Shown one piece after another: positions 635-40,650 of a stretch of 64,000 nucleotides of DNA. The position numbers and the translations under genes were made by a program. The notes beneath the pieces are model-generated. The model saw nothing but the letters and a program-made list of their open reading frames with translations, did not search any database and was not told where the DNA came from. Each line of letters begins with the position of its first letter. Position 1 is the stretch's first letter. Origin of the DNA: a virus; IMG/VR virus record IMGVR_UViG_3300008110_000048, positions 62,001 to 126,000 of that record; one strand, 5' to 3'.

Positions 635-641
635 ATAGTAA
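635..641 (-). promoter_or_regulatory. Putative late promoter box TTACTAT (fibre gene)
   Basis: On the minus strand the sequence reads ATGTTACTATTG, 52 nt upstream of the fibre ATG at 589. It is one of eight copies in front of late-type genes. No -35 hexamer is recognisable upstream. A plus-strand copy of the box at 696 serves the divergent gene. Confidence 0.5.
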
Positions 642-695
642 CATATTTTTCAGCTTTGCGCTAGTTAAAGTCAATTTGATTCAAGGAGTTTAGTC

Positions 696-702
696 TTACT
701 AT
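696..702 (+). promoter_or_regulatory. Putative late promoter box TTACTAT (surface protein gene)
   Basis: The plus strand reads GTCTTACTATTG, 30 nt before the ATG at 726. This is the only late-type copy on the plus strand. Its presence in front of one of the few plus-strand genes supports a directional promoter rather than chance. Confidence 0.5.
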
Positions 703-725
703 TGCACAAGAGGATGGGAGTCTTT

Positions 726-2906
726 ATGCGGAATTTTATAAGTAATTTATTTAGATTATCAACGGTAAGTATAGCTGTTGTAGGATTTTTTGCACCACTA
801 TCCAGTGCGCAAGCAAGTAACACTTTTGTCAATGGAGACTTTAATGGATCCTCCGGATGGACTGTCTCCCAGAACGGAGGCTCTGGAGTTTTATTCAATG
901 GCTCTTTGCAATTTTCTTATGAAACGGGCGAAGTTTTTCAATCTATTCCTGTCACACCAGGAGAGATTATAAATTTTTCATTTGTGGTTAATAATAGTAC
1001 GACGAATAGCATAGGCCAAGGTGCTGTGTCAGACACCTGGACAGCAACTCTATCCTCAGACTCCCCCTCTCCCGCTTCAGCTACGGTCACTAGATCTATT
1101 TCCCATAACCTGGAAAACTTCAGTTTGTCCATTACCATTCCTGAGGGAGCAACAACCGCTACAATAACCTTTAGTGGTATAGACAATGGATACTGGGCTG
1201 GGCACTACGGTCCGAGCATTGATAATGTAAATTTATCTATCACTCCAGCACCACTGCCTTTTACTCCTGGAAATAATGGCTGCGGTCCATATCAAGCCTT
1301 TACTGTCACTGGAACTTCTGGTGGCGCAATCTGGGGTTCCAATCCCTACACAGATGACTCAACGTTTTCTTCAGCTGCTGTTCACGCTGGTTTAATTGAC
1401 GTTGGCGAAACCGCGATCATTGAACCATATCTGGTAGACAACTACCCATCCTATGTAGGTAGTACTGCAAATGGCGTCTCAACCTATGACTGGGGAAGTA
1501 ACTGGTGCGGGTATTACATTCGTATTCTTGGTACTTCCGGCGAAACACCTACAACTACAACAACTATACCCAACTTTCTTGGAGTTCCCCAGAGCGTTAC
1601 TGTCACAGACACCGGTGAGGGTGTACTTGTTGACTGGGAAGTGGCAAACGACGATACTGGAGTTTCTCCAGAGCGGTATGCAATCTCATGGAGCACTGGC
1701 TCTGCTGGATGGGGCGTTGCAACCGGAAATGTTGGCGATGCAAGCGCATTAAATACCGAGATATTTCTTGGCTATTCACTATTTGAGGGAACTGGTGGTC
1801 TTGGCACTGAGTATACCTTCACGGTTCGCGCAGATAACGACACAACCGGTGTGTACTCACAACCGTCCTCTGGTATTCAATTTGTAGTTAGCGCACCACC
1901 GCCGCCTACGACCACTACTACTACCACAACTACAGAACCTCCAACAACAACTACAGAACCAGAGACAACTACTACTGAAGCTCCAGTTGTAACAGAACCA
2001 GAAACTACAACTACAACTGAGCCAGAAGTTATTCCTCCAGTTGTTATCCCTCCGGATACAGAACCGCCGGTAATTATTCCTGAACCAGAAATCACAATAC
2101 CCGAACCTGAAACTACAGAGCCAGAAATAATTATTCCTGAACCAGAAATCACAGAACCAGAACCCGAAACTACGGTTCCAGAAGAGATATCTGATCAAGT
2201 AGATGAAATCTTATCTGGAAATCTAACTGAAGAAGAATTTGCCAATGCCGTAGATGAAATTTTAACTTCAGCTGATAATGAAGAAGAGCTGGTCGCTGCA
2301 GCTACAGAATTATTATCTGGCGATCTATCTGCAGAACAGTTTACAGAAGTTATTGATCAAGTGTTTACAGAAGAACTAAGTGACGAAGCCTTTGCCGAAG
2401 TACTTGATACAGTGTTTGAAGAGCCACTAAGCGATGAAGAATTTACTGCAGTTATCGACGCTGTTTTAGATCAACCATTAAGTGATGAACAATTCGAAGA
2501 ACTAGTTGATGTCTTAAGCAGTGACACAGTCACTGATGAGCAAGTTCAAGAAGCCGTCGATGCAATTATTGAAAATGGAATAACAGAAGATCAAGCAACT
2601 GAGATTGCTACAAGTGCAGAGGTACTATCTTCTATCGACGGAGATCAAGCAGATGAGATCTTTGCTGAAATTCCGATAGATGAAATAACAGAAGAGCAAG
2701 CTTTGGAGATTATTGGTGCGGTGCAAGATGCTCCAGAAGAAGTACGTTCTTCATTTGAAGAAGAAATAAATATATTTGGTTCCGGAAGCTTAAATACTTA
2801 TGTGCCTCTGGGTTCCAGCATAAATGTAGGACAAAGAAGAGCGGTCATAGCTGCTGGTGCAGTTATAGCCGTTGCTCCAGTAGCTGGAGCTCCAAGAAGA
2901 AGATAA
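726..2906 (+). CDS. Secreted multidomain surface protein (CBM-like, LCCL, FnIII, Thr-rich linker)
   Basis: I chose ATG 726 because GGGAG lies 5 nt upstream; TTG 702 and ATG 714 are alternatives. The product is 726 aa. Residues 1-31 are a signal peptide ending AQA/S. Residues 33-175 form a beta-sandwich like carbohydrate-binding modules (NGDFNGSSGW). Residues 184-268 match the LCCL fold pattern (WGSNPYTDDS, AAVHAGL, paired Cys 186 and 261). Residues 282-390 are a fibronectin type III domain. A Thr/Pro/Glu linker follows to ~500, then acidic helical repeats of ~20 aa (SDEEFxxVIDxVL), and a short hydrophobic C-terminus ending GAPRRR. Linkers of this kind are typical of actinobacterial surface proteins. 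I infer export to the host envelope in late infection. A virion-attached adhesin is the alternative. Confidence 0.8.
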   Translation: MRNFISNLFRLSTVSIAVVGFFAPLSSAQASNTFVNGDFNGSSGWTVSQNGGSGVLFNGSLQFSYETGEVFQSIPVTPGEIINFSFVVNNSTTNSIGQGAVSDTWTATLSSDSPSPASATVTRSISHNLENFSLSITIPEGATTATITFSGIDNGYWAGHYGPSIDNVNLSITPAPLPFTPGNNGCGPYQAFTVTGTSGGAIWGSNPYTDDSTFSSAAVHAGLIDVGETAIIEPYLVDNYPSYVGSTANGVSTYDWGSNWCGYYIRILGTSGETPTTTTTIPNFLGVPQSVTVTDTGEGVLVDWEVANDDTGVSPERYAISWSTGSAGWGVATGNVGDASALNTEIFLGYSLFEGTGGLGTEYTFTVRADNDTTGVYSQPSSGIQFVVSAPPPPTTTTTTTTTEPPTTTTEPETTTTEAPVVTEPETTTTTEPEVIPPVVIPPDTEPPVIIPEPEITIPEPETTEPEIIIPEPEITEPEPETTVPEEISDQVDEILSGNLTEEEFANAVDEILTSADNEEELVAAATELLSGDLSAEQFTEVIDQVFTEELSDEAFAEVLDTVFEEPLSDEEFTAVIDAVLDQPLSDEQFEELVDVLSSDTVTDEQVQEAVDAIIENGITEDQATEIATSAEVLSSIDGDQADEIFAEIPIDEITEEQALEIIGAVQDAPEEVRSSFEEEINIFGSGSLNTYVPLGSSINVGQRRAVIAAGAVIAVAPVAGAPRRR

Positions 2907-2924
2907 CAACAGGGAGATATAATA

Positions 2925-3133: not shown

Positions 3134-3490
3134 TTCAGGAATAATCCACAGCTTACAAATAGCGTTTGACTCTATCTTCCCAGCTACAATTTCGCATCCC
3201 TGTCCACCCATAAAAAATACACAGTTAGAACAAACCATTCCCTGTTTAATAAAAGGATTTAACTTAGACGGTGCGTAGTGTGCACCGTTAGCTTTAGCTG
3301 TTTGGTCAAACTTGCCAAACATTTCCACTAAATGCTCATAGTGATCATACATCATTTTTTGACGAGGATTTAATTTTTCCTCAGGATCATCTGGATCCTC
3401 TTCGTCCTCAGGTTCTTCCTCAGGCATCTCGTCTTCTGGCATTTCTTCATCATCGCCATTAGAATATTCTGATAACCAATAATTATTCAT
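3116..3490 (-). CDS. Cys-rich phage protein, paralogue of its upstream neighbour
   Basis: ATG 3490 is preferred over GTG 3502: AAAGGTGG lies 8 nt upstream, and the start overlaps the previous stop by 8 nt. The product is 124 aa. The N-terminus is short, followed by a strongly acidic stretch rich in DE and P (about residues 12-38). The C-terminal part carries a four-Cys pattern CSNC...GCEIVAG...AICKLW. The same pattern occurs in the next gene and in small phage proteins associated with head or structural operons. It probably binds a metal or Fe-S cluster; the function is unknown. Confidence 0.65.
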   Translation of the reverse strand: MNNYWLSEYSNGDDEEMPEDEMPEEEPEDEEDPDDPEEKLNPRQKMMYDHYEHLVEMFGKFDQTAKANGAHYAPSKLNPFIKQGMVCSNCVFFMGGQGCEIVAGKIESNAICKLWIIPEDLIVK

Positions 3491-3806
3491 CCTTAGGTCC
3501 ACCTTTTACTGCGCCCTGCCAAATTGCAGCGAGTCTACAATAACCATCTTCCTCTACAGTTTGAGCAACAATCTTGCACACGCCATTGCCTTCATAGAAG
3601 GCGCAGTTTCCACACTTGACACCTATTGGAAGGTTATCATTTTCCATTGCAGGCACATAGCCAACCCATATGCCATTAGCGTCACCATTGGCTAACTTGC
3701 CATACTTGCCAACAATGCCAATCATGGCGTTAACATACTCTGCTTCTGCTGGAGCAAGCTTTTGTTCCATTTGCTCTAGAAATTCGGCTAACCAATAAAT
3801 TGACAT
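3483..3806 (-). CDS. Cys-rich phage protein (CxxC...C...C)
   Basis: The 107-aa product carries CGNCAFYEGNGVCKIVAQT...GYCRLA in its C-terminal half. It also has an N-terminal YWLAEFLEQ segment like the SYWLSEY start of its downstream paralogue. The pair probably arose by tandem duplication. A TTACTAT box lies 37 nt upstream and an AGGAGAAT ribosome site precedes the ATG, so this gene starts a late transcription unit. The Cys spacing suggests metal binding. No enzymatic motif is seen. Confidence 0.65.
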   Translation of the reverse strand: MSIYWLAEFLEQMEQKLAPAEAEYVNAMIGIVGKYGKLANGDANGIWVGYVPAMENDNLPIGVKCGNCAFYEGNGVCKIVAQTVEEDGYCRLAAIWQGAVKGGPKDE

Positions 3807-3836: not shown

Positions 3837-3843
3837 ATAGTAA
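3837..3843 (-). promoter_or_regulatory. Putative late promoter box TTACTAT (Cys-rich pair)
   Basis: The minus strand reads TCGTTACTATAT, 37 nt upstream of ATG 3806, in the short gap after the stop at 3854. An inverted copy of ACTATAT lies just upstream, so the site is partly palindromic. Confidence 0.5.
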
Positions 3844-3853
3844 CGATATTATA

Positions 3854-5032: not shown

Positions 5033-5236
5033 TTACTTGATACAATTTCTTGAACAAAATTTTTGATTATTATGCTCGTAAACCATACCTCGCTGGAGTT
5101 GACGACTACATGTTGGACAAGTAAAGGAAACACCTTTTAATCCGACATATAATACTGGCTTACCTGGTTGCTCTACTTTTAAAGTAGCTACGGGTGTATT
5201 GGATACATTTTTCTTTGCGGGTTTTTTTCCGGCCAT
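5033..5236 (-). CDS. Small zinc-binding protein (CxxC...CxxxC)
   Basis: The 67-aa product has a basic N-terminus (KKPAKKN). It is followed by a compact zinc-binding unit: CPTC at about residues 40-43 and CSRNC near the C-terminus, as in treble-clef or FCS-type fingers. A late-type box lies 39 nt upstream of the ATG. The Lys-rich start resembles the small basic proteins at 10-15 kb and is compatible with DNA or virion association. Confidence 0.65.
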   Translation of the reverse strand: MAGKKPAKKNVSNTPVATLKVEQPGKPVLYVGLKGVSFTCPTCSRQLQRGMVYEHNNQKFCSRNCIK

Positions 5237-5268: not shown

Positions 5269-5275
5269 ATAGTAA
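5269..5275 (-). promoter_or_regulatory. Putative late promoter box TTACTAT (zinc protein)
   Basis: The minus strand reads TAGTTACTATAT, 39 nt upstream of ATG 5236 and just after the stop of the acetyltransferase gene. It probably starts the unit that continues through the Pro/Thr-rich gene. Confidence 0.5.
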
Positions 5276-5285: not shown

Positions 5286-5924
5286 TTAAATATATTCGCC
5301 AAACTTCTTTATTTCCCTACCGGGCACTCCGACTACAGTTGTATGATCGCTTATATTATCTATGACTACAGTGCCAGCGCCCAGTGTACATTCTCTTCCT
5401 ATTGATTTGAAATTAATAATCACTGCGCCAGCCCCTATAGAAGTGGTGTCGCCAACTTTAACATCCCCACAAACCCTAACGCCGGGACTTACCGTGCAGT
5501 AGTCTCCTATAAAGCTAGATTGATTAATCGACGCTGCAGAATTAATATGGACATGCTTGCCTATCTTAACATTTGTTGTTAATAAAGAATATGGCCCCAT
5601 AGTAATGCCATTACCATATGAGCACTCGCTACCTATTAAAGCTGTCTCATGGATCAAATTAGCTGACTTTTCATCGTCTCCATAGAGTAAGTCTATTTTT
5701 TTTCTTATTATTGAGGAGTTAATGGCAATACAATATTTTAAATTTTTATATTTATTTAAATAAACGCTCAGCGATGAAACCGGCCCTATCGTCTTGTCGC
5801 TATACCTATTTACCGGATCATCATCTAGATAACCTATAATGTTCCATTTAATATATTTATCATTTTCAGATAGATAGGTCAGGTCAACAGCATGTCCGCC
5901 CGCTCCAATGATTATTAAATCCAT
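5286..5924 (-). CDS. NeuD/PglD-like sugar O-/N-acyltransferase (left-handed beta-helix)
   Basis: I chose ATG 5924, where the protein begins MDLIIIGAGGHAVDLT. This is the N-terminal nucleotide-binding motif of the NeuD/PglD family; the upstream ATG 5954 lies inside the previous gene. Residues ~90-205 are hexapeptide repeats (IGSECSYGNGITMG..., IGAGAVI, VVIDNISDHTTVVGVPGR) forming a trimeric beta-helix. Family members transfer acetyl groups from acetyl-CoA to sugars in capsule, sialic acid or glycoprotein glycan synthesis. It is the last gene of the glycan cluster, 4 nt after the methyltransferase. The substrate cannot be read from sequence. Confidence 0.85.
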   Translation of the reverse strand: MDLIIIGAGGHAVDLTYLSENDKYIKWNIIGYLDDDPVNRYSDKTIGPVSSLSVYLNKYKNLKYCIAINSSIIRKKIDLLYGDDEKSANLIHETALIGSECSYGNGITMGPYSLLTTNVKIGKHVHINSAASINQSSFIGDYCTVSPGVRVCGDVKVGDTTSIGAGAVIINFKSIGRECTLGAGTVVIDNISDHTTVVGVPGREIKKFGEYI

Positions 5925-5928
5925 AAAA

Positions 5929-6639
5929 CTACCACAAAAATAAATAACTTCCAAAACTACTGTCTATTTGTTCTAAGCTTATTTTTCTACCCTGCTCATC
6001 AAATACCTGTTTTGTATTAGCAAGATTTTGCGTGAGTTCTTTAAGTAAGGATTCGCCATTATTAAAAAAGGGAGTGTGCAGAGATAAAAATAATGGTATC
6101 TTTGCTTGGTTTAAAACTTTTATGTATTCTTTGATTAGTTGAAACTCGTGTCCCTCAATATCAATTTTTATTAAAGAAAAATCTCCAAGCGAAATTAACT
6201 CATCTAGACCCATTGCTTTAACAGCAATACCCGAAGATGCATTCTCTGAGACTCTTGTCATTGAATCTCCAAAGAACCTATTTGGTTTGAGGTAAGCTGT
6301 TTGTAAATTTGAAGCAGCGGCGTTAAAGTGAATTATATTGGTAATTGAGTTTAAGGAAATATTTTTTTGCAGGATCTTATAGGCGGTAGGGTCTGGCTCT
6401 ACGGCAAATACTCTTCTGCTTAGAAATGAAGCGTAGATTGCCGTTGGTCCAACCCATGAGCCTATATCTAAATAATCTTTATCTTTTGATAAATACTTAT
6501 CTAATACTTGAAAAGTGCTATTCTCCCAAGAAGAATATTTTTCTGACCAAAAATTATAACCAACATCTTGATGGAGCTCTTTGCTGTCTTCTACTTTAAA
6601 GGAAATATTATTTTTATTTACTATAATTTCTTTTTGCAT
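5929..6639 (-). CDS. FkbM-family SAM-dependent methyltransferase
   Basis: The 236-aa product carries the FkbM (Methyltransf_21) signature: the SAM-binding motif YLDIGSWVGPTAIYAS near residue 55, an acidic strand end VFAVEPDPTAY, and the motif IKIDIEGHEFQLIKE near residue 160. FkbM enzymes O-methylate sugars and polyketides and are common in glycan gene clusters. It abuts the glycosyltransferase upstream (stop to start about 1 nt) and the acetyltransferase downstream, which points to modification of the same glycan. Confidence 0.85.
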   Translation of the reverse strand: MQKEIIVNKNNISFKVEDSKELHQDVGYNFWSEKYSSWENSTFQVLDKYLSKDKDYLDIGSWVGPTAIYASFLSRRVFAVEPDPTAYKILQKNISLNSITNIIHFNAAASNLQTAYLKPNRFFGDSMTRVSENASSGIAVKAMGLDELISLGDFSLIKIDIEGHEFQLIKEYIKVLNQAKIPLFLSLHTPFFNNGESLLKELTQNLANTKQVFDEQGRKISLEQIDSSFGSYLFLW

Positions 6640-7296
6640 TTATAGGAACCATCCTTCACTTCTTCTTCCACCAATATGCGTCACATATGGCTTATCATAT
6701 ATTTCTCCATAAAAACCAAATCTATAACTGTCATTTAACGAGTGAACTTTTGAAGTGAATTCAGATTCGCCACCATGATCTGGCCACCCCATTCTTACGG
6801 TAGACATTGGATACAAACAAGGATTTAAAGTAAACAATCTACCATGTTCAAAAAAGCCATCCTTTTGAGTGTAGTCTTCTAAGTGTTGAAAGACAAATCC
6901 GCCCACCTCTTCTTCGGGCGGATTAACCGGAGCGCGCACCAAAGCCATTTGAACAAGATTAGGATTAGATTCAAGAAGTGATATAAGATTTTCAATACTG
7001 ATTTCCTGATTAAACAAGAAGTCATCTTCTAAATGAAAAATATAATCTGAATCACGAGAAACGGAAGTCCATGCTGACTGTACTGCTCCAGCCAAACCTC
7101 TTCTAGTTTCATGTGAAACTATACGAAAATCTGGATAATTAGACATTAAATATTGATGATATCTAAGATCTGCTGAATCATTAATTATTATTTTCTCATA
7201 AAAATTATAGTTTAAATTTTTACGCATGGACGGTATTGTTTCAGAAATACATGCTTGTCTGCCGTCAGTTATTATTATCAAAGAAACTTTATTCAT
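6640..7296 (-). CDS. GT-A fold glycosyltransferase
   Basis: ATG 7296 overlaps the preceding stop by one base (TGATG) and is preferred over GTG 7299. The product is 218 aa with a Rossmann-type GT-A start (KVSLIIITDGRQACISETIPS). It has NDSAD in the nucleotide-binding region and the metal-binding HLEDDFLF motif near residue 95. The C-terminal half contains GFFEHGRLFTLNP and WPDHGGESEF, typical of acceptor-side loops. It probably transfers a hexose from an NDP-sugar within the glycan cluster. Confidence 0.75.
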   Translation of the reverse strand: MNKVSLIIITDGRQACISETIPSMRKNLNYNFYEKIIINDSADLRYHQYLMSNYPDFRIVSHETRRGLAGAVQSAWTSVSRDSDYIFHLEDDFLFNQEISIENLISLLESNPNLVQMALVRAPVNPPEEEVGGFVFQHLEDYTQKDGFFEHGRLFTLNPCLYPMSTVRMGWPDHGGESEFTSKVHSLNDSYRFGFYGEIYDKPYVTHIGGRRSEGWFL

Positions 7297-8171
7297 CACA
7301 ACTCCATTATTGGGGCTGGGTCATGTATCAATCTGCCCAAATCTCCCTGTACTAAAATATTTTTGTAATACATTTTTTCTAAGCCAGGTACGCCATTTGC
7401 TTCGAATTCTTCAAACTCTTGCCACCATGCAGCACCTTTATATAAATCATGATTGCTAGGAAGAGCTTTACACGCTTCATAGGCATTCGTCACTTTTTTA
7501 ATAAAATGATCAAGAGATCTCCACTGGAAATGTCTAATGGCAAGAATCTGTGGACCAAAAACAATCCGATCATGACCATAATCGTCAATGTAAACGTTGA
7601 CATTAGCGCCAATATTCCCACCGTTATGTTGAACAAAATGATTTCCATTTGAAATCTTGACAAAAGCATCGTTTTTTCTAAACCTAAAGCAGCTCTTATG
7701 GTTTGTTGGGAGATCCCATTTATATTGCATTGAATGAAATGGCGATTTCCCTGGGGTGTCATATTCTGTTACGGAATGATTTGTGTATAACGTTCTATAT
7801 ACGTCAACGTTTTCGGCATCTAGTTGACTGAAGGCATCAGAAAGAGTTTGATTTGGCGAAAACCAAATTTCATCTATATCAAAAGGAATAATCCACTGTG
7901 CACCATTTTCTCTAGCTCTTTGCGCTAGAGCGGTCATCTTTTCACTTTGAGTATATCCGACAACATCATCTTTTAAAAGAACAACTTGAGTATCGCATCC
8001 ATGCGATTGTATGTGCTCCTTGGCTAGATTCATTTGTTCCCAGGTATTATCTTTGGATAAATTATCTGCAATAATAATTCCGTTTACTTTATTTGCAGCG
8101 AGATGAATCATGGTGTGATATATGATATCACCCTCATCTCTTGCCATTCCAACTGCCCATACATTAGACAT
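7296..8171 (-). CDS. Glycosyltransferase family 2/92-like protein
   Basis: ATG 8171 is chosen because the domain begins MSNVWAVGMARDEGDIIYHT and GGGAG lies upstream. The start overlaps the upstream stop by 8 nt. The 291-aa product has ADNLSKDNTWEQ in the nucleotide-binding region and IIPFDIDEIWFSP near residue 108, the DxD-type metal site. The N-terminal ARDEGDII and FDxDE pattern is that of the Glyco_tranf_2_4/GT92-like group. It sits between two other transferases in a tightly overlapping operon, so the three may extend one glycan. Confidence 0.8.
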   Translation of the reverse strand: MSNVWAVGMARDEGDIIYHTMIHLAANKVNGIIIADNLSKDNTWEQMNLAKEHIQSHGCDTQVVLLKDDVVGYTQSEKMTALAQRARENGAQWIIPFDIDEIWFSPNQTLSDAFSQLDAENVDVYRTLYTNHSVTEYDTPGKSPFHSMQYKWDLPTNHKSCFRFRKNDAFVKISNGNHFVQHNGGNIGANVNVYIDDYGHDRIVFGPQILAIRHFQWRSLDHFIKKVTNAYEACKALPSNHDLYKGAAWWQEFEEFEANGVPGLEKMYYKNILVQGDLGRLIHDPAPIMEL

Positions 8172-8904
8172 TTCTATCTTCTCCCATTGTCGGCATGAAA
8201 CCGTTTGTGCAGTTCCACTGCACTGACTTTTCCCTATAAACTTTCCCCTGCAAAGGTTTATCATAATCTATTGGATGAAATAAGAATCCATTTTTTTCTA
8301 TTCTATCAAAGAAGTATGCATCAGCGCCGGACCAGGCGTGCGGGTGATCGTCCCATCCGTCTACTAAATCAAACACTCTTCTAGTTGTCATGACTTGATT
8401 ATGGTCTAACTTATCAGCGCCTCTTTCCAAAGGTGAACTAAACCATCTAACGCCTCTACCATCTAATCCCCAGCCATCAATATTGCCATCTGCATCTAGG
8501 ATGTGTTGTGCGCAGAAGACAACATCATGTTTATTTTTTTCCGCTGAAAAAACCATTTTCTCAATCATCTCAGGATAATAAAAGTCATCGTCCGCCAAAT
8601 AGCAAATGTATTTTGATCTTGAATATAAACGAACTGCGGTGTTTATCTGAGTAGCATATCTGGCGGTATTTAACCTATCTTGCTCTTTGATAAATGAATT
8701 AAAGAATGTTATTCTTTTATCTCCACGATAATTATCAACAACATCACGAATTACATCCATGACTTTTGTGTTTGGGGAATTGTCTTCTGCAATAATTAAA
8801 TGAATATTATCGTAGGTTTGCTGAATGACTGAATGTATTGCTTTTTCTAAATAGCTTGGCTTATTATAGCTAGTTAATACAACTGACACTTCTGGATTAT
8901 TCAT
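8164..8904 (-). CDS. Family 2 glycosyltransferase
   Basis: The 246-aa product is a canonical GT2. It starts VSVVLTSYNKPSYLEKAIHS, continues with IIAEDNSPN and carries the metal-binding YLADDDFYYPE near residue 100. Residues ~150-200 hold GWDDHPHAWSGADAYFFDRI in the acceptor region. AAAGGA precedes the ATG. It is the first glycan gene after the tRNA. Substrate and linkage cannot be predicted from sequence. Confidence 0.85.
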   Translation of the reverse strand: MNNPEVSVVLTSYNKPSYLEKAIHSVIQQTYDNIHLIIAEDNSPNTKVMDVIRDVVDNYRGDKRITFFNSFIKEQDRLNTARYATQINTAVRLYSRSKYICYLADDDFYYPEMIEKMVFSAEKNKHDVVFCAQHILDADGNIDGWGLDGRGVRWFSSPLERGADKLDHNQVMTTRRVFDLVDGWDDHPHAWSGADAYFFDRIEKNGFLFHPIDYDKPLQGKVYREKSVQWNCTNGFMPTMGEDRNV

Positions 8905-8931
8905 ATCTTTCCTTTTTACAAAAACATTTTG

Positions 8932-9022
8932 CGGAGAGGGTGGGATTTGAACCCACGGACACTTTTAAGGGTGTCGACATCTTAGCAGGATGTTCCATTC
9001 AACCGTGCTCTGGCACCTCTCC
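8932..9022 (-). tRNA. tRNA-Ser (anticodon GCU)
   Basis: The minus strand folds into a complete class II tRNA. The acceptor stem is GGAGAGG/CCTCTCC with discriminator G. The anticodon stem ACATC/GATGT encloses CTGCTAA, with anticodon GCT at 8984-8986. A long variable arm GACAC...GTGTC and a T arm GTGGG-TTCAAAT-CCCAC follow. CCA is not encoded. It would read AGC/AGU Ser codons. It lies between the exonuclease and glycosyltransferase genes and is the only tRNA I find here. Confidence 0.95.
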
Positions 9023-11899: not shown

Positions 11900-12112
11900 T
11901 CACTTCTTTTTCTTATTTTTATTTGTAATCTTTTTCAAAGTCTTAGCAAAATTTGCCTGCTGGACAGTCAGCTTGCTGTATCTACCAGGATTCTTGGTTA
12001 CAGCTGACGCATAGGCTGCTGGTGTTTTTCCAGCTTTTTTAGCTTTAGCCGTAAAAGCTCCAGGTCTTTTAATTGCTTTCTGAATCCATTTTTTATCAGT
12101 TGGCTTTGCCAT
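11900..12112 (-). CDS. Small basic phage protein, 70 aa
   Basis: The product is strongly basic. It contains KRPGAFTAKAKKAGKTPAAYA and QQANFAKTLKKITNK and ends KKKK. The GAFTAKAKKAG...QA-FAKTL pattern is widespread in small uncharacterised proteins of tailed phages. The start overlaps the end of the LPXTG gene by 17 nt, so both share a transcript. It is probably virion-packaged or nucleic-acid-binding by composition; no function is established. Confidence 0.7.
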   Translation of the reverse strand: MAKPTDKKWIQKAIKRPGAFTAKAKKAGKTPAAYASAVTKNPGRYSKLTVQQANFAKTLKKITNKNKKKK

Positions 12113-13439
12113 TCTTTAAAACCTTTCGATTAAACATAAATATTGATATGCCTATAGTAATCAAGAAAGCGCCAATGCCCATGGAAGAATTGCTATCTTG
12201 CCCAGTTGTTGGAAGAGGTGCACTTATGGTATCCTCTGTCCCATGGTCATGAGTGCTATGGTCATGAATTGTGGTTGTGGTTGGATCTACAATTATTTGT
12301 GGTTCAGTTGTAGTTGTTTCCGGAACAGTTGCAACAACGGTAGTTGTCGTTTCAATAGTGGTAGTGGGGGCAGGAGGGTCCCAGGAAACTGTAATTGAAA
12401 CAACTTTAACTACACCGTTAACCGTTGCACTAGCGGTATACACTGCTGTACCTTGAGATGCTGTATTAACTGTAATGTTAGCTATTCCATTAGAATCTGT
12501 GGTTGCAGTAAAAGTTTGCCCTGAATCTGGTCCAGAGGAGACGGTCATGGAAACCGTAACTCCAGCCTGTGGAACTCCTGCTAAAGTTTGCGCAGTAGCG
12601 GTAATTGTAATTGGCTCACCAGCACGAGGTTGCTGAGGGCTATAAGAAAGAATAAAAGAGCTAGGAAGAGAAACGCTTCCGCCTCCAATAGAAACAGACT
12701 TTCTAGAGTCACTTGCGCTAGGATATGGATAGTCTACAAGTGTTTTTAATGTGCCCACATTACCAGTAAAATAACCGTGCCAGCATGCAGCGACAAGTGT
12801 ATTACTAAGACCAAAATCAGCAATACCGTCTGTTGTAGCTTCTGGCCCCCCGTTGCATCCACCATTATTGTATACTGCTTGCGGTAACAGGGCTGTTAGC
12901 CATCCATATGAACCAAAGTTAGCAAAAAGACCACCGCCACCATTGACAAAGTCTGCTATCTTTTCTGCGTTAGCTGTAAAAATATCTTCTGTACTGGAAG
13001 CGCGATTCCAGTTGTCCGGTATCCATAATACCGCTGGAGGATTAGAGGTGATTGTGCTACTGAAGAATGTGCTTATTTCTGAATCTGTAACATAAAAATC
13101 AATCTGAGGTGCAGTAGAAAATTCAGCTAAAAACTGTGTACTTAATTGGGTAGCCCAGTCAGCTCCACATGAGGTTGTAGTAGCGTTTGAGCCAACAATG
13201 GCGATATGTCCATTATTTAAATTTCGCGCACCATCATGCACCTTCTTTAAAACCTTGGCTATATATTGACCAGTACTTTCCCATCCAGAGTGGCAAACTG
13301 GATCCATTCCATCCAACACAATTGGGCCACCACCACCACTGGTAGCTAAGGCCACGGATGAATTGCTAACTGGACTGATAAGCAGTCCGATACCTAGAGT
13401 AATTGATAATACTGATAAGATGTTTTTAAATTTAGACAT
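12096..13439 (-). CDS. LPXTG-type cell-wall-anchored surface protein
   Basis: The 447-aa product has a Sec signal peptide (about 1-34). Residues 40-240 are an alpha/beta domain like class I GATase/ThuA folds (HIAIVGSNATTTS, FYVTDSEISTFF, ADFVNGGGGLFANFGSYG). Residues 258-350 form an invasin-type Ig-like domain (PRAGEPITITATAQTLAGVP, TTDSNGIANITVNT). A Thr-rich linker follows with a His-rich patch (HDHSTHDHGTED), then the sorting signal LPTTG at about 409-413, a hydrophobic stretch and a basic tail. In Gram-positives sortase links such proteins to peptidoglycan. It has its own terminator-promoter pair upstream. I infer late display on the infected cell; the ligand or substrate is unknown. Confidence 0.85.
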   Translation of the reverse strand: MSKFKNILSVLSITLGIGLLISPVSNSSVALATSGGGGPIVLDGMDPVCHSGWESTGQYIAKVLKKVHDGARNLNNGHIAIVGSNATTTSCGADWATQLSTQFLAEFSTAPQIDFYVTDSEISTFFSSTITSNPPAVLWIPDNWNRASSTEDIFTANAEKIADFVNGGGGLFANFGSYGWLTALLPQAVYNNGGCNGGPEATTDGIADFGLSNTLVAACWHGYFTGNVGTLKTLVDYPYPSASDSRKSVSIGGGSVSLPSSFILSYSPQQPRAGEPITITATAQTLAGVPQAGVTVSMTVSSGPDSGQTFTATTDSNGIANITVNTASQGTAVYTASATVNGVVKVVSITVSWDPPAPTTTIETTTTVVATVPETTTTEPQIIVDPTTTTIHDHSTHDHGTEDTISAPLPTTGQDSNSSMGIGAFLITIGISIFMFNRKVLKNGKAN

Positions 13440-13473: not shown

Positions 13474-13480
13474 ATAGTAA
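13474..13480 (-). promoter_or_regulatory. Putative late promoter box TTACTAT (LPXTG gene)
   Basis: The minus strand reads ATCATTACTATATC, 41 nt upstream of ATG 13439. It lies immediately downstream of the terminator at 13485-13523, so the surface-protein gene begins a fresh transcript. Confidence 0.5.
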
Positions 13481-13484: not shown

Positions 13485-13523
13485 ACAAATAAAAAAGAAG
13501 GCTATGGCGTTTTTACCATAACC
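13485..13523 (-). terminator. Intrinsic terminator of the small-protein unit
   Basis: In the minus direction GGTTATGG and CCATAGCC pair (one G-T pair) around an A-rich loop and are followed by TTCTTTTTTATTTG. It stands after the 43-aa gene ending at 13546 and before the late box of the LPXTG gene. Confidence 0.75.
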
Positions 13524-13545
13524 CTCTTTAATTGAAATGATTAGA

Positions 13546-14799: not shown

Positions 14800-14972
14800 T
14801 ATTTTTTACGCTTCTTCTTCAATCTATCAGCTGACGATATTGCAATAGCTATTGCTTGCTTTTTGGATTTAACTACTGGACCACCTTTTCCTGAATGCAA
14901 GGTGCCCCTACCGAATTCTCCCATAACAGACTTAATCTTTTTTTGATAAGCTGCTTTCTTCTTACTTGCCAT
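14799..14972 (-). CDS. DUF6496-like small basic protein
   Basis: ATG 14972 (MASKKKAAYQKKIKSVMGEF) is preferred to the longer frame from 15032, which lies inside the upstream gene. The 57-aa product contains VMGEFGRGTLHSGKGG followed by VKSKKQAIAIAISSA, the signature I associate with DUF6496, and ends KKKRKK. The family is broad in phages and bacteria and has no assigned function. Lys-rich ends suggest nucleic-acid binding. Confidence 0.7.
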   Translation of the reverse strand: MASKKKAAYQKKIKSVMGEFGRGTLHSGKGGPVVKSKKQAIAIAISSADRLKKKRKK

Positions 14973-15108
14973 TATTGTTTTTTGTCCAATGACTTGAATA
15001 TTGACCACCAGTTTTCTTGGTATCAATAACATTCATGACAGAATCTTTGAGTAGTTTATAATAATTTTTTTCTGAGGATGTTTTATTACCCCAACCTTTA
15101 TCGGCCAT
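14962..15108 (-). CDS. Small hypothetical protein, 48 aa
   Basis: The product MADKGWGNKTSSEKNYYKLL... continues with SVMNVIDTKKTGGQYSSHW and NNNGK. A late-type box lies 43 nt upstream and the stop overlaps the next start by 11 nt. It therefore heads the small-protein unit. It is less basic than its neighbours. No family is recognised. Confidence 0.6.
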   Translation of the reverse strand: MADKGWGNKTSSEKNYYKLLKDSVMNVIDTKKTGGQYSSHWTKNNNGK

Positions 15109-15124: not shown

Positions 15125-15179
15125 AATAAAAAAAGACTAGTTATATAGTAACATTTCTGCCACTATATAACTAGTCTTT
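15125..15179 (-). terminator. 18-bp perfect hairpin with U-tract, containing a promoter box
   Basis: Two 18-nt arms (15132-15149 and 15162-15179) are perfect inverted complements around AACATTTCTGCC. In the minus direction the hairpin ends in a run of seven U and follows the gene ending at 15202, so it should terminate that transcript. The downstream arm also includes most of the TTACTAT box of the next unit. Confidence 0.8.
15145..15151 (-). promoter_or_regulatory. Putative late promoter box TTACTAT (small-protein unit)
   Basis: The minus strand reads ATGTTACTATAT, 43 nt upstream of ATG 15108. The box spans the loop/stem border of the terminator hairpin, so the same DNA ends one transcript and may start the next. 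Confidence 0.5.
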
Positions 15180-15201: not shown

Positions 15202-15471
15202 TTAGATATTTTTATTTTGTTTTTGTGCAGCAGGAGCTTTTTTAGCAGCTGGCTTCTTGGCAGAAGAAGAACCTTGCCCCTTTGGTCTGCCAGGCTTTTT
15301 GGCAGTTGGTTTCTTGTCAATGCAGGTTTCATCTTTTACGGGCGAAACTGGCTTCACTGAAGGTTTTGGCTCAGCCTTAACTTCTGCTAACACAGGCTTT
15401 GGTGTGCTAACAGCAGGAGTAATCGTTTTAGTCTTTTTCAAACCAAAAATCTTCTTAATTAAATTAATCAT
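15202..15471 (-). CDS. Lys/Pro/Ala-rich protein with AT-hook-like motif
   Basis: The 89-aa product has a short hydrophobic/basic start (MINLIKKIFGLKKTK) and a Pro/Val/Lys-rich middle. The sequence AKKPGRPKGQG contains the GRP core of AT-hooks, and an Ala/Lys-rich tail (SSAKKPAAKKAPAAQ) resembles histone H1 and bacterial nucleoid proteins. It is monocistronic, with a late box 36 nt upstream and a strong terminator downstream. I infer minor-groove DNA binding, perhaps condensation of packaged DNA. Confidence 0.6.
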   Translation of the reverse strand: MINLIKKIFGLKKTKTITPAVSTPKPVLAEVKAEPKPSVKPVSPVKDETCIDKKPTAKKPGRPKGQGSSSAKKPAAKKAPAAQKQNKNI

Positions 15472-15500: not shown

Positions 15501-15507
15501 ATAGTAA
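15501..15507 (-). promoter_or_regulatory. Putative late promoter box TTACTAT (AT-hook-like gene)
   Basis: The minus strand reads TAATTACTATAAA, 36 nt upstream of ATG 15471, in the gap after the early-type gene that ends at 15520. It marks the boundary between the early block and the late small-protein block. Confidence 0.5.
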
Positions 15508-16624: not shown

Positions 16625-16641
16625 ACTATCTATTATAGCAG

Positions 16642-26007: not shown

Positions 26008-26186
26008 AGTATCTTCACCTTGGTATCGCTATAAATATTAATTTTTGCAACAACCTCTTCCGAGATGTTGTCTGCATTCGTTCTGTAATATACTGACTCT
26101 TTGATTATATCATCTAAATGATTTAAAATAAACGTTCTATTTACAATACGCTGATCTTTAGTCAGCTTGCTTTCTCCATTTTTCAT
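26004..26186 (-). CDS. Hypothetical protein, 60 aa
   Basis: The charged helical product begins MKNGESKLTKDQRIVNRTFI and continues LNHLDDIIKESVYYRTNA. It overlaps the HD-domain gene by 29 nt upstream and the primase by 4 nt downstream. It is probably translationally coupled to both. No family is recognised. Confidence 0.5.
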   Translation of the reverse strand: MKNGESKLTKDQRIVNRTFILNHLDDIIKESVYYRTNADNISEEVVAKINIYSDTKVKIL

Positions 26187-36605: not shown

Positions 36606-38663
36606 TTACACCTTTGCGTTATCTTTTATAAATTTAATCTCGCAAGAATCTGTTGTACAATACTGTTCGCCTATCGCATCTGCTGCAAGTCCAGCATAAA
36701 TTCCATCTAAATCAATTGGTAATAGATTTTTTGATGACTCATCATAGTCATTTTGCTCTATTTGAGTATATGGCATTTGTGGATATACAAAGTTGCCTTG
36801 AGGCAAGAATGATACGGTTTTGAGCTGACCGTCATACATATGCAAAACGGTACCCACATGATGCTTTTCTTCCTCAGAGTCAAAAGATATAGTTACAGAA
36901 ACAGAGTTATCCGACCAATATCTTTGTGCTGTTGCAGCCAAAGACATTTTTTCAAATATTGTTACATCTTTTTCTGATCTACGTGCATCAGACTTGATAG
37001 GGAAGAATACAACAGAAGTAGTATCTGGAGACTCAGATGCAGGTTCCACTCTATAATTAGCCATTTGGAACAGTGGAAGCATGGGGTCGTCATTTGCAAA
37101 TCTTATTGCTCTCAAAAAGTATTTGCCACCAGGAGTCCAGTGTACGCCAGGAGATTCGCCAGCTAAAATAGATACAGTGCCAGATGGCTTAACTGTTGTG
37201 GTCTTGATTGATTCACGTATACCAAGCCATTCTGAATAAATATTGTCATATCTCTGAACGGTCTGGTACCCATTGTCAAGCCACTCTCTTAGTACTGGCA
37301 AACCTAATCTGTCAGCAAAGTTAGCGACACCCGAAACAGATGTGCCAATTCTGCGATTTCTTTGCATGATAGCGTTTGTTTCCTCCCAGTGAGTTGGGAG
37401 CAAGGTAACAGTCTTTGCATACAGATAGGCAAACTTCAGTGTTCTCTTAAAGTCTTCTAAGGAGTCATGTCTATTTAGATATGTCTCAACTAGCGTACAA
37501 CACTCGTAGGACTCTAGGGACTGCTCTGCGCATGGATTATAGCCTGCTACACGATGGTCTTTATTATTTGGCGGATCAGCCAATCGGCCATACTTTCTTG
37601 ACATGTCCATCCATATGACACCAGGTTCTCCATTTCTAGATATACCGTCAACAATTGAAGACAAATCTGTACCAACAGATGTTTCTACGGAATTATTTGA
37701 CATCCAGCCCCAGCCTGGAGATTCGGCGGAGTAAGAGTTTCTTTCTGGAAACTTATCAGAATTTTTTAAATTAAGGAAGTCTTGATCATCTAAACGACCA
37801 ATTAAAAGTTCGGCGGATCTGCGAACATTACCGGATACAACACAAACACCTATGGTGTTACCAATGTCAGCTATGTCTACTCTAGTTAGTTTTTGTCCAG
37901 CTCTTCCATCAAACATTCTTCTAATATGATTATGCAGTTTGATCAATGGATCTGGGCCAGCTGCTGTACCACCAAATGTTTTAATTGGAGTACCGGATGG
38001 TCTAATCAAGGAGTAGTCAAACTGCAAAAGGTTTTGATCTGGCTTTAAATAAGAGTTAATCAAGGAAACTACAGAATTAACCCATCCTTCACGAGAGTCC
38101 TCAATTGTGTCAATAACCATCGATTTGGTTGGTTCATATATGTTGAAATCTTTATCTGCGCCCTTATCATCAAATCCCACGCCAACGCCCAACATAGATG
38201 CCTCCATCAAAAATCCAAACGGCTTAGCGGGATTTAACTTGGTCATTTCTGATGTACTCACAAAAGCGCAGTTCTGTAAAGCAGCGGAGTTCTTTTGTAC
38301 CATAACAATAGGTGTGCCCATGACCCATAGTCCTCTACCTGGCGGTGTCCACTTTAAATTGAACAATCTATCAAAAGCCTCTTTTGCAGAAGACTGAGCC
38401 TTAATGTCATTCCACGGAAGTCTATTCTTCTTGCAATGCTCCTTTTGTAGGGAGTACATCCCATTAATAACTCTTTCACATACATCTACCCATGTTTCTT
38501 TTGTGCCATCTTCTTTCATTCTTGAATATGTTCTTAGAAACGTAATTTCGCCAACAGAATTACCCGCAGCGTCCGTATAGCCAAATGGTGCTTTTAATTT
38601 CTTATACGCTTCCACAAAATCATCACTTAAACGAAAAGTAAACATTGATGAACCCTCAGACAT
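36606..38663 (-). CDS. Adenosylcobalamin-dependent (class II) ribonucleotide reductase, monomeric type
   Basis: The 685-aa product matches the monomeric RTPR-like class II enzymes. An N-terminal allosteric/substrate region has ALQNCAFVST with the first redox Cys near 132. FGFLMEASMLGVGVGFDDKG and VVSGNVRRSAELLIG follow. The active-site loop NPCAEQSLESYECCTLVETY near 372-391 carries the thiyl Cys and partner Cys. PSGTVSILAGESPGVHW comes next, and a C-terminal shuttle CTTDSC lies near 672. It reduces ribonucleotides using B12, with no oxygen dependence and no small subunit. Confidence 0.93.
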   Translation of the reverse strand: MSEGSSMFTFRLSDDFVEAYKKLKAPFGYTDAAGNSVGEITFLRTYSRMKEDGTKETWVDVCERVINGMYSLQKEHCKKNRLPWNDIKAQSSAKEAFDRLFNLKWTPPGRGLWVMGTPIVMVQKNSAALQNCAFVSTSEMTKLNPAKPFGFLMEASMLGVGVGFDDKGADKDFNIYEPTKSMVIDTIEDSREGWVNSVVSLINSYLKPDQNLLQFDYSLIRPSGTPIKTFGGTAAGPDPLIKLHNHIRRMFDGRAGQKLTRVDIADIGNTIGVCVVSGNVRRSAELLIGRLDDQDFLNLKNSDKFPERNSYSAESPGWGWMSNNSVETSVGTDLSSIVDGISRNGEPGVIWMDMSRKYGRLADPPNNKDHRVAGYNPCAEQSLESYECCTLVETYLNRHDSLEDFKRTLKFAYLYAKTVTLLPTHWEETNAIMQRNRRIGTSVSGVANFADRLGLPVLREWLDNGYQTVQRYDNIYSEWLGIRESIKTTTVKPSGTVSILAGESPGVHWTPGGKYFLRAIRFANDDPMLPLFQMANYRVEPASESPDTTSVVFFPIKSDARRSEKDVTIFEKMSLAATAQRYWSDNSVSVTISFDSEEEKHHVGTVLHMYDGQLKTVSFLPQGNFVYPQMPYTQIEQNDYDESSKNLLPIDLDGIYAGLAADAIGEQYCTTDSCEIKFIKDNAKV

Positions 38664-39363
38664 TTTGTACTCCTACCTTTTTAATATATTGACTGTTTGT
38701 TTTATTTAATTCTGCTAATTTTATTTTCTTTATTTGGTCTATTGAATAAACCTTATGTATTTGTTTTTCAAAAAAGTATCCACTTCTCCAGTTGAATACT
38801 TTATCTACATTTGACTTATGGTTAATAAATATATTGCAAATGACTGCTCCACCATAAGCTTTGACTAGATTTGATAACTTTACCTTTAGCGCACTCATAT
38901 CAATGTTTGAGCAATTTTCATTTTCTTCGGCCTTTTGATATAGCCAATTGTAAGCCTGTCTTGTTATCGGAGAAATATCTATGGGGTCTATAATGCCAAC
39001 TTCAATTGCTTGATTTCTAAGAAGTACAACTTTTAAGTCTTCCTCTAATATATCAAGATACATGGAAAACCAATCATGCTTGTTAAATTGTGCCCATCCA
39101 GTGCACCAGAACAATAGGTTGGTAGGAGGATCTGGTATTGCAGTTTTTTCCACAAAGGGCAAAATCGTTGCACAGCTGATTGCCTTTTTGACATGCTCCT
39201 TAGCCAAATCTTCGTTACGAAGTTTGTTGACAGAATTTGTCCATAAAGTCTTGATTGGCTGCTCCCAACTAACGTCAGCAACATATAGTCTTAGATATTT
39301 TTCTGCAACAGATAATGGCAGTGTCTTGTTTGTAATTGCTTCCTGAACTTCTTGTATAGACAT
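38656..39363 (-). CDS. Hypothetical protein, 235 aa
   Basis: ATG 39363 is chosen (TTAGGA upstream) over TTG 39369. The product MSIQEVQEAITNKTLPLSVA... is mainly helical, with ATILPFVEKTAIPDPPTNLL, HDWFSMYLDILEEDLKVVLL and AYGGAVICNIFINHKSNVDK. It overlaps the reductase start by 8 nt and is the first gene after the promoter at 39415, so the two are co-expressed. No family is recognised; it may assist nucleotide reduction or host takeover. Confidence 0.6.
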   Translation of the reverse strand: MSIQEVQEAITNKTLPLSVAEKYLRLYVADVSWEQPIKTLWTNSVNKLRNEDLAKEHVKKAISCATILPFVEKTAIPDPPTNLLFWCTGWAQFNKHDWFSMYLDILEEDLKVVLLRNQAIEVGIIDPIDISPITRQAYNWLYQKAEENENCSNIDMSALKVKLSNLVKAYGGAVICNIFINHKSNVDKVFNWRSGYFFEKQIHKVYSIDQIKKIKLAELNKTNSQYIKKVGVQNV

Positions 39364-39414
39364 CCTCAATCCTAAATAAGCTCACATAAATTGGTTTAAA
39401 CATATATATTTGCC

Positions 39415-39445
39415 AGTATAAAGAGACAGCCCCGTCGATTTCAGA
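39415..39445 (-). promoter_or_regulatory. Putative early promoter (CTGAAA-18-TATACT)
   Basis: On the minus strand TATACT lies at 39415-39420, the same -10 as the promoter at 19427. CTGAAA lies 18 bp upstream, inside the loop and arm of the hairpin at 39429. Transcription would begin ~45 nt before ATG 39363 and lead into the ribonucleotide reductase operon. Confidence 0.45.
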
Positions 39446-39451
39446 CGGGGC
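39429..39451 (-). terminator. GC-rich hairpin (8-bp stem) upstream of the reductase operon
   Basis: GCCCCGTC and GACGGGGC pair around GATTTCA. In the minus direction TGTCTCTTTATAC follows, a weak U-tract. It stands ~65 nt after the holin-like gene and probably ends the late transcript from the right. It overlaps the -35 region of the putative promoter. The surrounding 146-nt gap (39370-39515) holds no gene. Confidence 0.6.
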
Positions 39452-39515
39452 CGTTGCTCTATCGGCTTTCTGACGGATATATTATATCACGCCATAGCCG
39501 TTATGTAATGCTAAA

Positions 39516-39716
39516 TCAGCCTTTCAAAGTTGCTGCACTTTCTGCGTCACCAATCTTTGTGGCGGCAAAACCTTTAATTACGCTTATGCCAGCAGCAACA
39601 GCAGCTGTTGCAGCAGACTTAAGCTCATCAACACCACCAACTGTATAAACAGCTACAAAAGCCTGAACTGCTGTCCAAACTGCTCTTTCAATAATATCTT
39701 TATATAATTTAGTCAT
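39516..39716 (-). CDS. Holin, r1t-type candidate
   Basis: The 66-aa product begins MTKLYKDIIERAVWTAVQAF, has a hydrophobic AVYTVGG stretch, and then Ala/Val-rich LKSAATAAVAAGISVIKGFA. It ends in GDAESAATLKG. Length, the RAVWT-VQAFVAV start and the Gly/Asp-Ala/Ser end match small r1t-type holins of actinobacteriophages. It is far from the endolysin but lies with other late membrane genes. Confidence 0.65.
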   Translation of the reverse strand: MTKLYKDIIERAVWTAVQAFVAVYTVGGVDELKSAATAAVAAGISVIKGFAATKIGDAESAATLKG

Positions 39717-39728
39717 ACAACTCCTTTG

Positions 39729-40007
39729 TTAAGAATACTTTTTTCGAACCAACTTCTCTATAAGAAGATGAAAAGTTAAACCTAACCACGCTCCTACTGG
39801 TATTATTCCTGTTAATGGTTTTTCAGTTAATCTCCAAAAAGATCTAGTTAAGGTCTCAATCTTTTTGGACTTTATAGCGTATATGTCATACGCTATAATT
39901 CCTAATACTAATCCTCCCCAAGCGATTGTACCACTTTTTCTTTCTTCTTTTTCAAGAATCAAAGGGGAACTTATAGCATCAGAGAGCTTGAGCCGAAGGG
40001 ACCCCAT
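39729..40007 (-). CDS. Small membrane protein (actinobacteriophage-type)
   Basis: The start is uncertain (ATG 40007, 40034 or 40061); 40007 gives 92 aa and a short overlap with the upstream gene. There are two hydrophobic segments: IAWGGLVLGIIAYDIYAI and LTGIIPVGAWLGLTFHLLIE, the latter after LTRSFWRLTEKP. The pattern 'G---YDIYA...TLTRSFWR...P-A--G---HL' recalls small membrane proteins in Streptomyces and related phages. It neighbours the r1t-like holin and may belong to the same lysis group. Confidence 0.6.
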   Translation of the reverse strand: MGSLRLKLSDAISSPLILEKEERKSGTIAWGGLVLGIIAYDIYAIKSKKIETLTRSFWRLTEKPLTGIIPVGAWLGLTFHLLIEKLVRKKYS

Positions 40008-40611
40008 ACCACTCTTGAACTTTTTCACGACCATAGTCTCCAGTTGTATTAGCTTGACCATAACCAGAAGTGAATATAACAGAGCTTGTTACACCCTGGA
40101 ACTCACTTGGCTTGAACAAGCCAAACGATGCCGGAGCACCTCCGGCTTCAGTTCTTGGTCCATGGCCAGTGTCAGCAAATATATTAGCAGATGTTACGCC
40201 GTCAAAGATGTAATTATTGTAAAGAGAATATTCTCTAACTCTTGTTCCGGCGTGACCATAATCAGAAGGGAAGGCCTGAGCGCCAGCAAGACCCTTATAT
40301 TCTAGAGGTCGGAATCTTGCGCCATCGTATGTTCCAGTGCCATCTGGGAAGGTGCCAGATAGAGGGTGGATATAAAGTGATGTTCCGTTAAACACCTGTG
40401 ACAAGAATCTATTACCTGGGAACTGACCTGTTCCAGGTGCAAAATGATTGTCAGGGGCACCGTCTAAAACGTGACTAGTGCTATAAAGTGGGTAGAAAGA
40501 ATATGTTCCAGTACCCTTAGACTTTCCAGTCATTGTAGTGTATGGGTTTACCATCTCGGACGATGATCTACCCTTTAAAACTGGTCTAGGTCCTACATAA
40601 AAAGTAGCCAT
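39979..40611 (-). CDS. Conserved virion-associated protein, 210 aa
   Basis: The product begins MATFYVGPRPVLKGRSSSEM. It contains TGTYSFYPLYSTSHVLDGAP, HFAPGTGQFPGNRFLSQVFN and ARFRPLEYKGLAGAQAF. I recognise this Gly/Tyr/Pro-rich pattern from many uncultured freshwater and marine phages, where it is unnamed. It lacks enzyme or membrane motifs. A late box lies 39 nt upstream. It is probably a secreted-like beta-rich structural or decoration protein. Confidence 0.75.
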   Translation of the reverse strand: MATFYVGPRPVLKGRSSSEMVNPYTTMTGKSKGTGTYSFYPLYSTSHVLDGAPDNHFAPGTGQFPGNRFLSQVFNGTSLYIHPLSGTFPDGTGTYDGARFRPLEYKGLAGAQAFPSDYGHAGTRVREYSLYNNYIFDGVTSANIFADTGHGPRTEAGGAPASFGLFKPSEFQGVTSSVIFTSGYGQANTTGDYGREKVQEWYGVPSAQAL

Positions 40612-40643
40612 TTATTTTCTCCTTGTCAGAAATCCGTATACTT

Positions 40644-40650
40644 ATAGTAA
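40644..40650 (-). promoter_or_regulatory. Putative late promoter box TTACTAT (virion protein, 40 kb)
   Basis: The minus strand reads AAATTACTATAAG, 39 nt upstream of ATG 40611, in the gap after the tail-protein array. It would start a short unit covering the virion protein and two small membrane proteins. Confidence 0.5.

Follow-up and report, generated by a model that had tools for sequence, protein, structure and literature searches.

A short word, TTACTAT, recurs in front of genes in a 64,000-nucleotide (nt) stretch of viral DNA (hereafter the window; bases 62001-126000 of the 193,454-base IMG/VR virus record IMGVR_UViG_3300008110_000048, here named genome G000), and the question raised by this locus is whether the word is a promoter and, if so, which sigma factor reads it. 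A preliminary description of the window had listed eight such boxes as marks of late-type transcription units. Our analysis indicates that the TTACTAT box is very probably a promoter. The fuller statement, that [AG]TTACTATA would be a single-element late promoter read by the phage's own sigma factor, and that this sigma would itself be made through the host sigma, is the explanation that we regard as probable.

TTACTAT stands upstream of starts in sense orientation

Bare frequency carries little of the argument. The window holds 23 copies of TTACTAT, compared with a shuffle mean of 16.6 (standard deviation 3.6) and with 4 of 100 shuffles reaching 23, while the longer form RTTACTAT occurs 17 times against a mean of 7.1, a count reached by 0/100 shuffles. 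The main comparison was extended to eight genomes, namely G000 and seven relatives chosen from 14 related records, with genes called by one simple caller on all eight and the upstream region defined as -75 to -15 from a start, with a gap of at least 30. Taken whole, these genomes contain 312 copies, compared with an anagram mean of 396, and the word ranks 78th among 105 anagrams, being rarer than average; the preliminary description was thus right to rest its case on position and orientation and not on frequency. Upstream of starts, 61 sense copies of TTACTAT were found and one antisense copy, whereas the mean over the 104 other anagrams is 4.0 and their maximum belongs to TACTATT (25), which overlaps the box. 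The upstream share of TTACTAT (0.196, median 0.008) is the highest of the 105 anagrams, and an unprompted ranking of 7-mers placed it as the top upstream word in 5/8 genomes.

A held-out set of 87 loci, with 192 upstream regions unlike the discovery set, was then used. It was obtained by skipping 102 of 189 loci, whose DNA is shared with the eight genomes, and by reducing 666 upstream regions to 213 and then to 192; a few near-copies with shifted register remain, and four Moorella loci were kept out. In this set TTACTAT is present in sense in 31/192 upstream regions and in antisense in none, the anagram mean being 1.66. The scan of the rest of the genome and of relatives that the preliminary description had proposed therefore found the box enriched upstream of starts with respect to shuffles, anagrams, the antisense strand and coding copies.

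The whole of G000 contains 49 copies of TTACTAT. In its numbering, intergenic sense boxes near starts lie outside the window at 47489 (+), 154890, 162835, 165618 and 166308. Boxes beyond the window front the tail-sheath gene and occur inside the head-gene region; there the major-capsid gene 162940-163998 (PF25209) is followed by box 162835 and preceded, at a distance of a few genes, by boxes 165618 and 166308. Two further arrangements outside the window were observed. At G000 47482-47495 (+) (L011), TATAAT and TTACTAT stand side by side (tgaTATAATATTACTAT) before a 48-amino-acid (aa) gene, an arrangement also present in G001, as if both promoter kinds served one gene. At G000 188814-188839 (-) (L016), two tandem boxes follow C and T runs (CCCCCCTTCCCCCC) and lie 75 and 94 nt upstream of an ATP-dependent-protease-like gene.

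Anatomy of the motif

An expectation-maximization (EM) motif search over 386 upstream regions of the eight genomes converged on a TACTAT core in 19 of 28 runs; the seeds included four words taken from the box, and TATAAT was used as a seed two times. The best-scoring runs read [a/g]tTACTATa.....a, and common 6-mers or TATAAT had served as seeds for the top nine. The motif obtained is [AG]TTACTATA, followed by a weak A that would occupy +1 if TACTAT is placed as a -10 hexamer at -12 to -7. C at -10 (0.91) and T at -9 (1.0) are near-invariant in the fitted motif, which comes from a run seeded with the box. Base preferences were counted on copies within 12-75 nt of a start, 63 intergenic boxes being dereplicated to 44: a purine is found at -14 in 39/44 and A at -6 in 28/44, while 159 dereplicated intragenic copies show no base bias at -14, -6, -1 or +1. 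The distance from box end to start codon is 30-34 nt in 20/44 cases and never less than 20 nt, ranging from 21 nt up to 75 nt, where the count ended; a leader carrying a ribosome-binding site would fit into this space.

A word search upstream of 45 boxes yielded no TTGACA-like -35 hexamer among the top words, in agreement with the preliminary description, which had noted no common -35. The boxes do not correspond to a canonical sigma-70 promoter (TTGACA at -35 with TATAAT at -10), and a -35 or other partner element was likewise set aside, with no hexamer found and with T-rich words in that region that are perhaps terminator tails. In the predicted promoter, the hexamer TACTAT would thus occupy -12 to -7, preceded by T at -13 and a purine at -14 and often followed by A at -6; the promoter would have no -35 hexamer, and transcription would start at about the +1 A, six nt after TACTAT.

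Conservation and gene content of the boxed units

TACTAT is kept upstream of best hits in 16/17 cases in G001, 12/13 in G005, 9/11 in G002 and 8/10 in G003, compared with 43%, 19%, 22% and 18%, respectively, for other 6-mers of the same regions. Orthologues were then grouped, counting clusters of at least three genomes and using a slightly looser box pattern. Among 113 such clusters, 13 were box clusters and 16 TATAAT clusters, and 2 boxed clusters also hold TATAAT in at least 2 members. The tail-sheath gene and the gene opening the holin unit are the two sites with a box in every one of the eight genomes, and the units behind boxes include those of tail sheath, tail fibre, head-region proteins and holin. 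This gene content agrees with the label of late-type units given by the preliminary description and suggests that the boxes act late, but the split from the TATAAT class is not clean.

The second class has the form TG-N-TATAAT, and its sites look like host-type promoters. One lies at 39481-39486 (-), where TGaTATAAT stands 117 nt upstream of the gene that precedes ribonucleotide reductase, and another at 26104-26109 (-), 96 nt before a primase-like gene; both are also found in G001. EM on box-free regions recovered TG-g-TATAAT only when seeded with TATAAT, the best-scoring runs being T-rich instead; the class rests on the clean TG-N-TATAAT sites, on the word ranking and on conservation in G001 and before the sigma operon described below. 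A TGcTATAAT at 16632-16637 was not counted as the promoter of a deoxynucleoside monophosphate kinase gene because it lies only 7 nt before the called start. Within the window, no box fronts the replication or nucleotide-metabolism operons, as the preliminary description had stated and as far as can be read from the letters.

A predicted phage sigma factor and its operon

The window encodes a predicted sigma factor of the sigma-70 family, 288 aa long, at 17960-18826 (-), with its start set from relatives, consisting of a sigma2-like part and a sigma4-like helix-turn-helix (HTH) at residues 220-265. TIGR02937 matches residues 91-269 (1.3e-10; 41.1 bits, cut-off 42.9) and is matched by 16/16 relatives; PF08281 (Sigma70_r4_2) is above cut-off, again with a match in 16/16 relatives, and the protein matches phrog_1740. 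Pfam region 2 was matched in just 2/16 relatives (best 0.12), and a search of five genomes for Pfam sigma region 2 gave no match. This gene is the sole sigma-like match in each of 4/5 genomes, and the remaining one, G004, has it in broken frames. All eight genomes encode it, with broken frames or stops at G004:130628-131454 (L152) and G006:10379-11194 (L168), which may be assembly errors or decay.

Foldseek of the sigma model on PDB gave no match at E <=0.001, and BFVD gave 4 matches at this threshold. With VIA-align the best Z was 8.3 (root-mean-square deviation 22.2) and otherwise about 6-8, the PDB rows listed being nearly all sigma or RNA polymerase complexes. The partial model thus appears to resemble sigma domain 2, and on a helical model a Z of about 6-8 is supportive only. 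A profile search of PDB sequences with the sigma returned two rows (best E 0.34).

Directly before the sigma gene lies a Holliday-junction resolvase or endonuclease I-like gene (18823-19389, -; phrog_9019 1.3e-15, PF05367 below cut-off), and before this pair stands TATACT (19427-19432, -), a host-type -10. Across 41 distinct sequences (28 dereplicated), the region before the resolvase-sigma pair holds TATAAT (40) or TATACT (1) in 41/41 and TTACTAT in 0/41. A host-type site before the sigma operon is what a cascade would need, in which the host sigma makes the phage sigma. In Moorella phage MTATph1 (L220:36493-41662), the resolvase and a sigma-like 'transcriptional regulator' are also neighbours and stand in this order, with a DNA polymerase gene close by; given the shared order, the pairing may be old. 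The sigma-like protein of MTATph1 is 22% identical, and TTACTAT was found in 0/89 upstream regions of that phage, with no clear motif of its own.

A phage-encoded multi-subunit RNA polymerase was set aside as reader of the box, as no beta'-type match was obtained in 5 genomes, with controls detected in 14/14 cases. In the six frames of the eight genomes neither NADFDGD nor DFDGD occurs, and the single DFDID word, found in G003, has a stop shortly after it.

Terminator-like hairpins and a box inside one of them

Terminator-like hairpins precede 10/61 boxed starts, 3/21 TG-N-TATAAT starts and 6/283 starts with neither motif; the excess at boxed starts compared with neither-motif starts has p 5e-5, computed on orthologues that are not independent. 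One such hairpin with a T-run (13494-13529, -) lies just upstream of box 13474. At box 15145 the two elements overlap: a 17-base-pair hairpin followed by a T-run (15133-15178, -; fold z -8.5) has a 3' arm that begins with the ACTAT of the box. In nine related hairpin-box elements (8 distinct), 97.8% of pair cells are kept, and changes on both sides occur in 3/17 pairs, slid controls showing none. A transcript starting at the 15145 box would lack the 5' arm of the hairpin and for that reason would not be stopped by the terminator, unlike transcripts arriving from upstream; the 46-nt element 15133-15178, as we infer from its letters, would end the upstream transcript and start the next one inside its stem. 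A promoter box within a terminator-like hairpin is an unusual arrangement, here backed by covariation. Joining all parts into one proposal, that an undescribed extracytoplasmic function (ECF)-like sigma with a sigma4-like domain would read -10-only late promoters that are coupled to terminators, with 15133-15178 as an end-and-start element, gives a picture that we put forward tentatively, as less likely than not.

Another terminator-like hairpin (39426-39454, -) lies after the holin unit and before 38656-39369 and ribonucleotide reductase. Over 39426-39486 (-), TGaTATAAT is followed after about 27 nt by this strong G+C hairpin with a short T-rich tail, which on the ribonucleotide-reductase side could be a terminator or a leader attenuator.

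Weighing of the explanations

In the mechanism favored here, the host sigma would read the TATAAT-type site of the sigma operon, the phage sigma would be made, and host RNA polymerase carrying this ECF-like sigma would open the boxed late units. Several observations weigh against this explanation and have to be set beside it. On the side of the counts, the gene calls rest on one simple caller of our own and the relatives share ancestry, so that counts are not independent; the box is not the first upstream word in G002 (rank 6), G006 (121) and G008 (387), and the farther genomes keep TACTAT only partly (G004 3/10, G006 3/6, G008 3/6; other 6-mers 5%, 5% and 11%). At the motif itself, the enrichment of T at -1 and A at +1 over the 44 boxes is weak (p 0.02 and 0.03), and the region from about -39 to -26 is enriched in T-rich words (TTTT 15/45, CTTTT 10/45; reached by 0/300 shuffles), which may be terminator tails or an upstream T-tract element. 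The sigma carries a sigma4-like HTH though the boxes show no -35 hexamer, its model is of low confidence (mean pLDDT 63.6 for the partial model, 55.3 for an earlier one), and in 1/41 sigma-operon sequences (L218) a TACTAT is present as well, though not preceded by T. Finally, TATAAT clusters include a major-head-protein match (5/8) and a virion-protein match (6/10), and such words before some genes of the virion block speak against a simple early/late rule.

The alternative that survives best keeps the box as a promoter but assigns its reading to a primary or alternative host sigma, which might be helped by a phage activator or appropriator in the manner of T4 middle transcription. TACTAT and TATAAT indeed agree at 4/6 positions, TG at -15/-14 is also present in 11/45 boxes, and the two words stand side by side at genome 47482/47489. 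However, the same genome has clean TG-N-TATAAT sites, so that degeneracy is not general among its host-type sites, near-invariant C(-10) and T(-9) would not be expected of a weak host -10, and the phage encodes its own sigma throughout the eight genomes, broken frames in two of them included. We therefore consider reading by a host sigma unlikely.

Were the box instead a strand-specific element of the 5' leader RNA, for example one at which the transcript is processed or bound by a protein, it would likewise be sense-only and have a preferred distance to the start codon, as observed. This distance is nevertheless spread from 21 nt to the limit of the count, one box lies within a terminator-like arm, hairpins directly before several boxes would often stop upstream transcription short of them, and the -10/+1 geometry would then be a coincidence, so that an RNA element appears very improbable in comparison with a promoter. 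Chance, that is, an AT-rich 7-mer picked by eye, would agree with bare counts that are not raised and with the 15/23 window copies inside genes, but it is opposed by position, orientation, de novo ranking and conservation and is rejected by the anagram and antisense counts and by the held-out set, leaving it a negligible probability.

The eight boxes of the window

The eight boxes listed in the preliminary description are exactly all the intergenic TTACTAT copies of the window (8/23; 15/23 are inside genes), and the intergenic share of the window is 6.4% by gene calls (binomial p 5.6e-5 for 8/23). Their coordinates and strands were correct, and every one points in sense into the next gene. The reported spacing of 30-52 nt to starts holds when counted from the first base of the box, corresponding to 23-45 nt from the last base. 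The flanking consensus fits most boxes but is not universal, since box 696 has C before it and boxes 635 and 696 have T after it.

Box 635-641 (-) lies 45 nt before the tail-fibre gene (1418 aa, with tail-fibre family matches), which extends beyond the window; it is present in 3/3 members of its orthologue cluster, G000 included, and a further best hit in G004 lacks the full core. On the opposite strand, box 696-702 (+) precedes, with a start at 726, an LCCL-domain gene (702-2906, +; 8.4e-9), the only long plus-strand gene of the window, and is found in 4/4 cluster members, G000 included. Box 3837-3843 (-), 30 nt before 3483-3806 (107 aa), is present in 3/3 cluster members, 2/3 of which also hold TATAAT. 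Box 5269-5275 (-) precedes 5033-5236 (67 aa), a gene absent from the gene calls and hence outside the comparison with relatives; the only match behind its earlier 'zinc' label is a weak LIM-type one below cut-off. Box 13474-13480 (-) lies 34 nt before 12096-13439 (447 aa, with a Big_1-like domain below cut-off) and is kept in 3/3 cluster members.

Box 15145-15151 (-), in the hairpin 3' arm, precedes 14962-15108 (48 aa) and is present in 6/6 cluster members, while box 15501-15507 (-), 29 nt before 15202-15471 (89 aa), is not kept in the single best hit found (G001). Box 40644-40650 (-) lies 32 nt before 39979-40611 and opens a three-gene unit made of a 210-aa protein with no family match, a 110-aa protein and, as third gene, the holin (39516-39716, -; PF16945 3.3e-8, phrog_443 1.3e-10). 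The box pattern is found here in 8/8 cluster members and the full TACTAT core in all 7 relatives. The gene behind this box had been called a virion gene, a label that no family match supports; a virion-protein gene (40658-41920) lies before the box.

Genome and relatives

G000 carries genes for DNA polymerase III alpha, a DnaB-type helicase, a primase-like protein, a B12-type ribonucleotide reductase, terminase and portal, as well as major capsid protein, tail sheath, tail fibre and holin, a predicted gene content that marks it as a contractile-tailed phage. A 6.9-kb stretch of the window used as query found no DNA relative in the phage collection, and by terminase the nearest named phage is Moorella phage MTATph1 (37.8% identity over 72% of the protein). 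IMG/VR relatives comprised 72 loci with the sigma gene and 51 loci with the polymerase gene; with the sigma profile, 432 IMG/VR stretches were found to encode a relative, and the best 80 of the 432 were kept. As for the host, scans of genome contigs with the sigma and with the polymerase returned no relative. When four large proteins were tested for PHROG families, three had no family and the fourth matched an endolysin. A single tRNA-Ser (gct) gene (8931-9022, -) adjoins glycosyltransferase- and hexapeptide-transferase-like genes (5286-8904).

Comparison with known systems

For large uncultured phages that are well represented in IMG/VR, the box and the sigma would constitute a concrete and testable promoter-sigma pair. 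If it is true, transcription units and likely late genes could be read straight from metagenomic contigs, and the question is raised of why a sigma with a region-4-like domain would go together with promoters that have no -35 hexamer. The open-access literature on TTACTAT or TACTAT phage promoters, judged from search entries, held nothing resembling this promoter, and the open-access literature searched held no expression data for this phage group.

Late promoters of T4 (TATAAATA; gp55, gp33 and gp45) are single elements with no known -35, and gp55 is not known to have a region 4. The analogy with them drawn in the preliminary description holds for the kind of promoter, a single element, and not for the sequence, as the T4 core is not found and the core here is TTACTAT. 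In T4, gp33 and gp55 are reported to replace sigma-70, aided by gp45 (PMC11598898).

The middle/late promoters of phiEco32 depend on gp36, a phage sigma used with host RNA polymerase, and consist of a single element, tAATGTAtA, without a -35, with the start 6-8 bp after the element; the missing -35 is tied there to gp36 having no homology to region 4 (PMC8948821). The likeness lies in one sense element before late-type genes, no -35 and a phage gene of the sigma-70 family (by sequence family). In contrast, the sequence is different, the sigma here has a region-4-like HTH (16/16 relatives) whereas gp36 does not, and the phiEco32 promoters are experimentally proven whereas the TTACTAT promoter is predicted from sequence. 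The same source gives the gp47 promoters of phage 7-11 as GTAAtg-16-aCTA (PMC8948821); a phage sigma and late genes are shared with 7-11, unlike its bipartite promoter with an upstream element.

For Kayvirus vB_SauM-515A1, the published account describes late promoters (TGTTATATTA) with a long -10 box without a -35 and an initiator 6 bp after the box, located mostly in the virion region, together with an inferred phage sigma, sigma-70-type early promoters and some units with both (PMC7698491). The build, a -10 box without a -35, is the same; the sequence differs, and the Kayvirus sites come from RNA sequencing in a phage of known host. The late promoters of phiEco32 and Kayvirus are nearer models than those of T4, and what would differ from both is the sequence of the element, a sigma with a region-4-like HTH and the closeness of the predicted promoters to terminators.

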